DNA from: a bacterium
GTDB lineage: Bacteria; Blakebacterota; Blakebacteria; Blakebacterales; Blakebacteraceae
Reading direction: 5' to 3'
NCBI GenBank assembly: GCA_025774615.1
Contig: JALGVQ010000181.1
Coordinates: 1 to 5,451, forward strand
Length of the DNA: 5,451 nt
Made by a program: the position numbers and the translations under genes. Below the pieces are notes generated by a model, which ran no database searches, had not been told where the DNA came from, and saw nothing but the letters and a program-made list of their open reading frames with translations. Positions 1,126 through 5,168 of the stretch are shown one piece after another; position 1 is the first letter of the stretch, and each line of letters opens with the position of its first letter.

Positions 1126-2133
1126 ATGCGGACATTCCCATCAGCAGGAATAGTGGCGCTTTGCCTGTCATTTGGTGTGCTCTCAAGTACAACCGATGCC
1201 CAATCCGGCCCGGCATCTGACAGAGAGACCCCGGAAACGCAACAGGGACGCCACAGGATACGTCTGCTTTTCACCGGAAACACGCTTGGCTACATCGATC
1301 CGTGCGATTGTGGTGGAGGTGTGCTTGGAGGATTGGACCGGCGATCAGCTACGGTGAGGGATATGCTCAACCAGAACAGGCCCACAGCCCTCTTCGATCT
1401 GGGAAATCTGTTCGAAGTACCCAACGACAGCTATCTTTCTGAACTGGGACGCCGTCAAGCCAGGTATCTCTCAGATGAGATGGAGCAGATGGACTACCTG
1501 TTCATGGCTCTTGGATACCAGGATCTTGCCTTTGATTCCCTGTTTCTGACTGAACACCTTCCCCATCTGGAATATCCACCCTTATTGACGAACAGATCAT
1601 CAGACCAGAACGATTTGATTGAAACTGTTCCACGTATTCGGCTGAAGATCGGTGAGCTGACTCTCGATTTCTTCAATGTGGTTGAGCCTGACCTGGTTAC
1701 TCGACCTGGACTTCTCCTGCCCTGGAGAGCAACTCTCGGCGAACACCTTCATGCATCGGAGCATGGTGAGGATCCGGCTGATCTGCAGGTCGTGATCGCC
1801 CATGTCGCCTGGGAAACGTCTGAATCCATGCCTGCGGAATTTCCGGCGATCGATGTGATCATCAATGGAATCATGCTCATTCCCCGGCAGGGCACCAGAG
1901 TCGGGAACAGTATAGGGATGACGGCTGCAAGTAAGGGGCAGATGCTTGCGCTGCTTGATCTCACATCGAGATCGCTGTCATCTCAACAAACAGGACAATC
2001 AGCGATCCTCGGATTTCAGGGGCGTCATATCGAGCTCAAACAATCCTCTCTTTCTGACCCCTCTGTATATGAGCGAATGACCGCTTTTTTACAGGAACTG
2101 AAACGGGATAATCTCATCCCACCGGGATCGTAA
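1126..2133 (+). CDS. Exported UshA/5'-nucleotidase-like metallophosphoesterase-fold protein with degenerate metal sites and a PCxC motif (335 aa)
   Basis: Residues 1-25 form a Sec signal peptide (Arg2, hydrophobic 8-20, likely cleavage after TDA), which supports the ATG at 1126 over the upstream GTG at 979. The mature part follows the N-terminal domain of UshA-type 5'-nucleotidases: first strand RLLFTGNTLGYIDPCDC (46-62), then GGVLGGLDRR (64-73), FDLGNLF (90-96), MALGYQDLAF (127-136), VVIAHVAW (222-229), DVIINGIML (243-251) and SKGQMLALLDL (269-279). In active relatives these are D-x-H, G-D, G-N-H, a lone His and G-H-x-H/Q. Here they read N-T-L, G-N, G-Y-Q, His226 and G-I-M-L, so six of seven expected ligand positions look replaced. 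Catalysis by the usual two-metal mechanism is unlikely. Cys60 and Cys62 are the only cysteines of the predicted mature protein. The C-terminal nucleotide-binding domain of true 5'-nucleotidases is absent. No Shine-Dalgarno site precedes the start. The fold call comes from motif order only; function is unknown, possibly a redox, metal or binding role in the periplasm. Confidence 0.8.
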   Translation: MRTFPSAGIVALCLSFGVLSSTTDAQSGPASDRETPETQQGRHRIRLLFTGNTLGYIDPCDCGGGVLGGLDRRSATVRDMLNQNRPTALFDLGNLFEVPNDSYLSELGRRQARYLSDEMEQMDYLFMALGYQDLAFDSLFLTEHLPHLEYPPLLTNRSSDQNDLIETVPRIRLKIGELTLDFFNVVEPDLVTRPGLLLPWRATLGEHLHASEHGEDPADLQVVIAHVAWETSESMPAEFPAIDVIINGIMLIPRQGTRVGNSIGMTAASKGQMLALLDLTSRSLSSQQTGQSAILGFQGRHIELKQSSLSDPSVYERMTAFLQELKRDNLIPPGS

Positions 2134-2216: not shown

Positions 2217-5168
2217 ATGTCACGGTCGAGCCGATGGCCAGTTCTCTCTTCATGCCTTGCTCCATTCCTTGCCGCGATATTCCTGGGCAGTGCAGTTGGC
2301 GCGCAGACAACCGGTGAGAACCTGATCAAGGATCTCAGCTGGAGGAATATCGGACCAGCCAACATGGGGGGACGGATATCCGACATCGAGGCGCTTGATG
2401 ACGATTTCACCCACGTCATCGCCGGCACAGCCTCGGGGGGCGTCTGGAAATCGATCAACGGCGGTAGTTCGTGGGAGCCGATCTTCGACGATTACGGCGC
2501 GGCCTCGATCGGTGACATTGCCATCTTCCAGCCAGATCCCGACATCATCTGGGTCGGAACAGGAGAAGAATGCGGTCGAAACAGTGCCGCCTGGGGAAAC
2601 GGAGTATACCGGTCGACGGATGGTGGTGAGACATTTGAACATGTAGGCCTTGAGGATACGTACACGATCGGCACCATCCTCACCCATCCGACCGATCCCG
2701 ATGTCGCCTGGGTGGCGGCGACCGGCTGCATCTGGGGATTCATCGGTGACCGGGGTTTCTTCAAGACGACCGATGGCGGCACGACCTGGCGGAAACTGGA
2801 AGGGGGGCTGCCCGATGACGGCAGGACCGGGGCGATCGAGGCGATCATGCACCCCGATGACCCCGATATCCTGTATGTCGCCTTCTGGGAGCGACTGCGT
2901 CAATCATTCCGGATGGACAGCGGCGGCCCGAACGGCGGGATCTTCAAGTCGACCGACGGGGGAGAGACATGGCAGAAACTGACACATGGTCTGCCCGAGG
3001 GTGACTCGGGCAAGATCGGTCTCGCCATCTCCCGTTCCACTCCCGATGTCATGATGGCGTACTACGAACACGGGTATCAGCCGACACAGGATGACCCGGA
3101 TTATAACGATATGACGAAACTCGGTTCGGGCATGTACCGTTCAGAGGACGGTGGAGCGAGCTGGACCCTGGTGAACCGTTATCAGAACCGCCCCTTCTAC
3201 TATAGCCATGTGTGGATCAATCCCCTCGACGACCAGCTGATCTATCGGCTGACCGGAGGTTTCCAGTACTCGGATGACGGGGGCACGACGTGGCAGCGAT
3301 TCGGGGGACGGGGGATCCACAGTGATTATCACGCTCTCTGGCTCGACCCCGCGAACCGGGACCGGTTCTATGTTGGGAACGACGGCGGCGCGTATCTGAC
3401 CCATGATCACGGGGACAACTTCATCATGTTCAACAACTTCGTGGTGAGTCAGTTCTACATGATCGGGGTCGATATGCGGGACCCGTACTACGTCTATGGC
3501 GGACTGCAGGACAACGGCACCTGGGGCGGACCCTCGGCGACCCGCGATCGTGCCATCTACACCGACCTCTGGTATACCATCAGCGGTGGGGATGGTTATC
3601 ACGTGCAGATCGACCCGACCGACTGGCGTATCGCCTATTCAGAGCCCCACCCGGGGAACACCGGGGGGCGGATCCAGCGCACCGACATCCTGACCCGCCA
3701 GGTTGCGGCGATTCGTCCGCAGAAGGGCGAGAATATCATCAATTACGATGATTACATCACCCCCGAGATAGAGGCATTGCAGTTGGAGAAGGGGTGGGGG
3801 CCATCGCCGGGTAACGGTAGCGGCGCATTCCGGTGGAACTGGTCGAGCCCGATCATCATGTCGCCTCACAATCCCCGGACCATCTACTTCGGCGCGAATC
3901 ATCTGTTCAAGACCGTCGACCGGGGGGAGACATGGTCTCTGATCAGTGGCGATCTGACGAAGAACGATCCTTACCGGACGATCAAGGAATCGGGTGGACT
4001 CACCGCCGACCACAATCCCGGTGGTGGTGCTGAGTTCCACGGCACGATCATCACCATCTCTGAATCACCGGTCCGGGAGGGCCTGCTCTGGGTCGGCACT
4101 GATGACGGAAACGTCCAGTTGTCCCTGAATGGTGGGGCGGAGTGGACGAATGTACGGGGGAACGTCCCGGGGGTTCCGGAAGATCTCTGGGTCAGTCGGG
4201 TTGAAGCCTCCCACACCGAGGAGGGATCCTGCTACCTGACCTTCGACGGTCACCGGAGCGCGAACTTCCAGCCATGGGTATTCAATACCTCCGACCACGG
4301 CCGGTCATGGGTGAATATCTCCGGCAACCTCCCGAAGGACCAGCCGGTATATGTGATCAAGGAAGACCTGCATAATCCAAACCTCCTGTTTGTGGGCACT
4401 GAGTTTGCGGTCTTCTTCTCGATCGATCGAGGGGACTCCTGGACCCGGTTGAACCAGAACATGCCGACGGTCGCGTTCCACGATCTGGTCATCCATCCGC
4501 GTGATGGTGACCTGGTTGCCGGGACACACGGTCGGGGGATCTGGGTCATGGATGACATAACCCCGCTTCAGCAGGCGACCCCCGAGGTGCTTGCCTCTGA
4601 GGCGCACCTCTTCGACAACAGGGTTGCGACCAGGTGGCTGAGTGTCAGGACCGGTGGCGGTGGTGGTTCGTTGATCTTCGGCGGCGAGAATCCTCGCCGG
4701 GATGCGGCGATCAACTACTACCTCGGCGAGGGAGAGACCGGTGACGTCACGTTCCAGATCTCTGATATCAGCAGAGATCTGATCTGGACACGCACGGTTG
4801 CCGCGGAATCGGGAATCAACCGATTCTGGTGGAACATGTACTTCGATCCCACCTCGTCACAGATCGATCAGCTGAGCGAACAGATCCGTGAGGCGATCGA
4901 TGGATTCCGGGCAGAGGCTTCCCGGGCACAGATCCGCCAATTGAGGGGTATCGAGAGCAGACTGGCGGATGCCGGGGGTGATTACGCCGCTCTGCAGGAG
5001 ATCGTGGCGGCTCTCACAGAACTCTCGGATGGATCGTACCGGTTCCGCCGACTCTCGATCCGTGGTCCGGCAGCTGAACCTGGAGAATACCTGGTCACGA
5101 TGACCTTCAATGGTTCGACTGAACAGAACCGCCTAGTGATCAGGCCTGATCCTCTGCTTGAGAAGTAA
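2217..5168 (+). CDS. Exported BNR/Vps10 (sortilin)-type beta-propeller protein, 'glycosyl hydrolase-like' (983 aa)
   Basis: Residues 1-29 form a Sec signal peptide (Arg3/Arg6, hydrophobic 13-28, likely cleavage AVGA before Gln30). Residues 38-780 hold Asp-box repeats of the S-x-D-x-G-x-x-W type at about 79 (SINGGSSW), 133, 184, 245, 309, 352, 566, 636, 691 and 735, plus a looser one at 395 (THDHGDNF). This fits two tandem beta-propellers, as in GH74 xyloglucanases and sortilin-type proteins. Family landmarks include GTASGGVWKS, GTGE-CGRNS-WGNGVYRS, FYVGNDGGAYLTHD, GGLQDNGTWGG, SGGDGYHVQIDP and GTHGRGIWVMDD. After residue 790 come a beta-sandwich-like segment (INYYLGEGETGDVTFQI), FWWNMYFDP, a helical stretch (about 877-938) and a final PGEYLVTMTFNGS strand pair ending in RPDP. 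Such proteins are often annotated as glycosyl hydrolases, but I cannot point to catalytic residues; protein- or glycan-binding is equally possible. No membrane anchor or secretion-tail domain is seen. It is convergent with an apparent paralogue. Confidence 0.93.
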   Translation: MSRSSRWPVLSSCLAPFLAAIFLGSAVGAQTTGENLIKDLSWRNIGPANMGGRISDIEALDDDFTHVIAGTASGGVWKSINGGSSWEPIFDDYGAASIGDIAIFQPDPDIIWVGTGEECGRNSAAWGNGVYRSTDGGETFEHVGLEDTYTIGTILTHPTDPDVAWVAATGCIWGFIGDRGFFKTTDGGTTWRKLEGGLPDDGRTGAIEAIMHPDDPDILYVAFWERLRQSFRMDSGGPNGGIFKSTDGGETWQKLTHGLPEGDSGKIGLAISRSTPDVMMAYYEHGYQPTQDDPDYNDMTKLGSGMYRSEDGGASWTLVNRYQNRPFYYSHVWINPLDDQLIYRLTGGFQYSDDGGTTWQRFGGRGIHSDYHALWLDPANRDRFYVGNDGGAYLTHDHGDNFIMFNNFVVSQFYMIGVDMRDPYYVYGGLQDNGTWGGPSATRDRAIYTDLWYTISGGDGYHVQIDPTDWRIAYSEPHPGNTGGRIQRTDILTRQVAAIRPQKGENIINYDDYITPEIEALQLEKGWGPSPGNGSGAFRWNWSSPIIMSPHNPRTIYFGANHLFKTVDRGETWSLISGDLTKNDPYRTIKESGGLTADHNPGGGAEFHGTIITISESPVREGLLWVGTDDGNVQLSLNGGAEWTNVRGNVPGVPEDLWVSRVEASHTEEGSCYLTFDGHRSANFQPWVFNTSDHGRSWVNISGNLPKDQPVYVIKEDLHNPNLLFVGTEFAVFFSIDRGDSWTRLNQNMPTVAFHDLVIHPRDGDLVAGTHGRGIWVMDDITPLQQATPEVLASEAHLFDNRVATRWLSVRTGGGGGSLIFGGENPRRDAAINYYLGEGETGDVTFQISDISRDLIWTRTVAAESGINRFWWNMYFDPTSSQIDQLSEQIREAIDGFRAEASRAQIRQLRGIESRLADAGGDYAALQEIVAALTELSDGSYRFRRLSIRGPAAEPGEYLVTMTFNGSTEQNRLVIRPDPLLEK

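Follow-up and report, generated by a model that had tools for sequence, protein, structure and literature searches.

The window, i.e., the whole 5,451-nucleotide stretch of DNA analyzed here, carries an uninterrupted open reading frame of 335 codons whose product begins with a hydrophobic signal (Table 1). The gene is flanked by a CBS-domain gene, on the opposite strand, and by a sortilin/BNR-repeat gene; neither is informative, and no redox gene adjoins this copy. The BNR-repeat gene (2217–5168, + strand) encodes a Sortilin/Vps10-type protein (PF15902, 3e-29) with 21 matches listed in its own genome, hence a member of a large paralogous family. No Rfam family and no tRNA were found in the window, and a promoter/terminator scan yielded no promoter and three terminator-like matches.

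Table 1. Features of the gene and its protein (positions in the window; residue numbers refer to the 335-residue product)
Feature	Position	Strand	Basis or comment
UshA-like (seleno)protein superfamily, Cys-form member of 335 aa	1126..2133	+	MPE domain, residues 41–334; without C-terminal nucleotidase or cytochrome domain
Predicted N-terminal export signal, residues about 1–25, putative cleavage site	1126..1200	+	Sequence read directly; AlphaFold2 pLDDT <50 for residues 1–37
N52-T53-L54, vestige of D-x-H (UshA D41/H43)	1279..1287	+	Profile alignment and 109-protein alignment
P59-C60-D61-C62, conserved motif of redox type; many relatives have Sec (TGA) at the position of C62	1300..1311	+	Homologue alignments
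G68-G69-L-D-R-R, start of the GGLARR helix of the family	1327..1344	+	Homologue alignments
D91-L-G-N94; N94 corresponds to UshA metal ligand D84	1396..1407	+	Profile alignment and 109-protein alignment
G130-Y-Q-D133, in place of G-N-H-E (UshA N116/H117)	1513..1524	+	Profile alignment and 109-protein alignment
H226, corresponding to UshA H217; two of the three nearest homologues have Asn here	1801..1803	+	Profile alignment, close-homologue alignment
G248-I-M-L251, in place of G-H-S-Q (UshA H252/Q254)	1867..1878	+	109-protein alignment

Pfam-A has no family for the protein, and a single-sequence PDB search gives no match; UshA is reached by profiles only. The profile of ten family members aligns with E. 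coli UshA at E 1.6e-14 (hhalign), while the four closest sequences alone give no alignment (E 0.29), diverse members being needed. Against solved 5'-nucleotidases a family profile reaches E 2.6e-30, and its C-terminal part matches cytochrome c554. The AlphaFold2 model (pLDDT 79, pTM 0.80; 8-row alignment) superposes with residues 41–333 on 5'-nucleotidases at Z 28.7 (VIA-align), the values for UshA (1ush) and SoxB being 25.3 and 26.7, respectively. It covers only the N-terminal domain of UshA; the C-terminal nucleotide/substrate-binding domain is missing. As judged by profile and predicted structure, the protein is of the metallophosphoesterase (MPE) fold of UshA-type 5'-nucleotidases.

The metal ligands of these enzymes (D-x-H, D, N-H, H, H-x-H/Q) are lost, with one exception. 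The hhalign pairs between UshA and the window protein are D41–N52, H43–L54, D84–N94, N116/H117–Y131/Q132, and H217–H226, and the 109-protein alignment adds H252–I249 and Q254–L251; H226 is thus the sole remaining ligand. At this position the paralogue in the same genome (L002) and a homologue from another genome (L004) have Asn, and among the 331 aligned residues of L004 just one is His. That the window protein no longer has the dinuclear metallohydrolase centre is well supported by these alignments together with the model. The earlier note, made from the sequence alone, had proposed a UshA-type MPE fold, the assignments N-T-L, Asn94, G-Y-Q, and G-I-M-L, an intact 335-codon frame with an export signal, and a lost hydrolase centre, and on all these points our results agree with it, the assignments being recovered as the same pairs in hhalign and in the 109-protein alignment. 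It had also taken His226 for the only ligand kept; the residue does align with UshA H217, but is not conserved.

The best conserved feature of the protein, C60-x-C62, is absent from that note. Directly after the former D-x-H the sequence reads G-Y-I-D-P-C60-D-C62-G-G-G-V-L-G68-G69-L, and so contains the superfamily motif, P-C-x-C/U followed by GG after strand 1. Both cysteines are invariant in the aligned close and intermediate homologues; the only other Cys of the window protein is C13 in the signal, and L004 has no Cys beyond the pair. By alignment, the pair belongs to the loop after strand 1, past the former metal ligands of that strand; the AlphaFold2 model gives this loop pLDDT <50.

The NCBIfam model NF041198, "UshA-like (seleno)protein", matches residues 38–291 at E 7.3e-20, with 71 bits against a curated cut-off of 275, which the window protein thus does not reach; NF049981, "family 2", gives E 5.3e-11 and 42 bits (cut-off 140). 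The 56% identical paralogue L002 and the homologues found in two related genomes, one in each, all keep C-x-C. Loci in other genomes have PCGC, or PCGU where the second position is an in-frame TGA, and a second group has CxxU. The genome of the window protein has selA and selB matches above cut-off; missing Sec machinery is hence not the reason for the Cys form.

Relatives were sampled as 30 loci from the NF041198 search and 60 further stretches from the same match list, together with the loci from a scan of genome contigs for the family (seven loci). Rows for the motif counts were chosen by HMM rather than by motif, and 108 proteins were scored. The motif C-x(1-2)-C/U is present in 91 of these, with TGA at the second place in 45 of the 91; since the sampling model was trained on the PCGU family, the motif count is inflated, and the percentages cannot be read as frequencies in MPE proteins at large. 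The UshA N116-H117 pair is kept in none of the 91 motif-bearing and in 8 of the 17 motif-less rows (Fisher p 7e-8), and H43 in 6/91 and 12/17, respectively (p 3e-8), related rows being treated as independent in both comparisons.

In the family tree, built without the motif columns, all motif-bearing rows fall on one branch (95 rows, four of them without the motif; SH-aLRT 98), and canonical 5'-nucleotidases lie outside it. Sec and Cys interchange frequently (17 changes). The four window-clade rows form a clade (support 100) with a long stem (2.22). At locus L099, three UshA-like genes lie close together, with Cys and Sec forms adjacent to each other.

Exactly four CxxCH motifs follow downstream in 52 of the 91 motif-bearing proteins and in 1 of 18 without the motif (Fisher p 4e-5), and Pfam Cytochrome_C554 is matched in all four full-length family members scanned. 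The window protein has no CxxCH, and so lacks the C-terminal tetrahaem cytochrome c554 region of NF041198, as does its whole clade. Within this orphan selenoprotein superfamily, which already carries a name, the window clade is best read as a divergent Cys branch without haem.

Part of the metal site survives elsewhere in the family. Residues D84, H217, and H252 are all kept in 24 of the 91 motif-bearing relatives; here, position 116 is Asp or Glu in 24/24, compared with 12/67 of the others (Fisher p 2e-13). The earliest branch with the motif has eight rows, and six of them show the same combination. The window clade lacks D84, H252, and in part H217. The relatives that keep this set suggest, from their aligned residues, a possible one-metal evolutionary stage. 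A possible mixed state between the nucleotidase and UshA-like selenoprotein families is seen in L037 and L072, where an intact D-T-H occurs together with C-G-C.

The paralogue and its homologues in the two other genomes adjoin genes for MauE (PF07291) and for a membrane-anchored CxxC protein with an invariant SP-[TS]-C-D-x-C motif. We read the latter as putatively thioredoxin-like, from its motifs; Pfam and PDB searches gave no confirmation of this reading. In an unrelated genome (L079:995-5302), DUF1573, rhodanese, MauE, a UshA-like CGU selenoprotein, and a Fer4_5 polyferredoxin are clustered on one strand. A survey of about 80 loci revealed no conserved neighbour across the wider family; of 72 proteins, 3 have MauE as a neighbour, and two of these belong to the phylum of the window. 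Genes for GHL13 glycosyl-hydrolase-like proteins also occur beside UshA-like genes (L027:297-1532, L031:2680-3795, L040:2388-3578; 6 of 75 neighbours, one sample).

Taken together, the window protein is probably an exported thiol-redox protein on the MPE fold, with the hydrolase centre gone, and belongs to a divergent Cys-form lineage within the UshA-like (seleno)protein superfamily. C60 and C62 would form a thiol/disulfide redox site at the mouth of the old active site; in the Cys/Sec-form relatives, a selenolate would take the place of the second thiol. In most relatives, the electrons would come from the tetrahaem cytochrome fused to them. Without a fused haem domain, the window protein would need an electron partner in trans, e.g., MauE and the putative thioredoxin-like protein, whose genes adjoin the paralogue. 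Catalysis by the pair is something we infer from sequence. About half of the sampled relatives have Sec at the motif position, which is an argument for chemistry at this site.

The protein might instead be a true pseudoenzyme, its MPE fold serving as a scaffold or for binding but not for catalysis, and C60–C62 being a structural disulfide only; the earlier note spoke of an apparent pseudoenzyme. The lost canonical ligands, all but one, are in line with this alternative, as are the missing C-terminal substrate domain and haems and the lack of a redox gene next to this copy; yet the second Cys is replaced by Sec in 45 of the 91 motif-bearing relatives, and the pair has been retained amid the divergence of most other residues. 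To our knowledge, a structural role of a Cys pair would not favour Sec, and we consider this alternative unlikely. The metal centre is indeed lost, but given the Cys-x-Cys/Sec superfamily a changed active site describes the protein better, and is more likely, than a dead enzyme. The suggestion that the gene is maintained for a non-catalytic role finds no support, for ligand loss accompanies a conserved Cys-x-Cys/Sec, often with a fused tetrahaem cytochrome.

At least as unlikely is that C-x-C/U binds metal, the MPE centre having been rebuilt as a thiol-ligated or mixed site. The 24 relatives with D84, H217, H252, and Asp/Glu116 do resemble a remodelled one-metal site near Cys/Sec; however, the window clade has lost most of this set, L004 has only its one His, and the strong ligands left in the window protein are mainly the two Cys.

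The window gene shows no sign of decay. Comparison of L002 with L004 gives dN 0.19 and dS 1.11; between the window copy and all others, synonymous sites are saturated (pS 0.77–0.78), with pN of 0.34–0.36. From columns fixed in the other three sequences the window copy departs at 19%, and L005 at 23%. The third-position GC is 0.53 for positions 1126–2130, compared with 0.70 in the paralogue; on the same contig it is 0.67 in the CBS gene and 0.65 in a glyoxalase gene. A degenerating duplicate on its way to a pseudogene is accordingly very improbable: the low third-position GC and the presence of this copy in only one of the four genomes of its phylum, all of them incomplete, point that way, but the frame is intact, both Cys are kept, pN is 0.34 against saturated pS of 0.78, and the departures from fixed columns do not exceed those of L005.

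The protein may be compared with the closest known systems. The protein resembles NF041198 (PCGU; "COG0737 UshA-like" of PMC2398784) in the MPE domain, the eroded D-x-H, and P-C-x-C/U...GG after strand 1; it differs in having Cys rather than Sec, in lacking the C-terminal tetrahaem c554 domain, and in lacking the D84/H217/H252 set that a quarter of the relatives keep. Among NF049981 (CxxU), the short haem-less members L048 and L050–L052 start similarly, with TGNTLGYLDPC, and are 24–25% identical to the window protein; they match both NF049981 and NF041198, but the spacing of NF049981 is CxxU, while that of the window protein is CxC. With the 5'-nucleotidases E. coli UshA and CD73 the MPE fold is shared (Z 25–29), whereas the metal ligands and the substrate domain are lost and the Cys pair is gained. 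The thiosulfohydrolase SoxB has the same fold (Z 26.7), and against its NCBIfam model full-length family members score as well as 4e-25; SoxB, however, is a dinuclear hydrolase, and the window protein, without such a site, matches the model at E 0.065 only.

More tentatively, the superfamily may have remade a phosphoesterase site with two metals as a redox site with Cys/Sec, the fold staying the same and the route leading through forms with one remodelled metal site (D84, Asp/Glu116, H217, H252) beside C-x-C/U; the window clade, with no metal and no haem, would be the end point of this conversion.

The UshA-like selenoproteins have been listed since 2008, as an entry in PMC2398784, PMC9312934, and PMC13188914; the open-access papers searched yielded no tested function, i.e., no functional study or enzyme assay of any family member. 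PMC2398784 names UshA-like, SelD, and FdhA as three families in which no Cys-based redox motif is conserved. Contrary to this, the alignments suggest that motif-bearing members have lost the hydrolase site and that their active centre is likely the Cys/Sec pair, to which four haem sites are often fused. As a short Cys form without Sec or haem, the window protein would be a convenient member to express and test.
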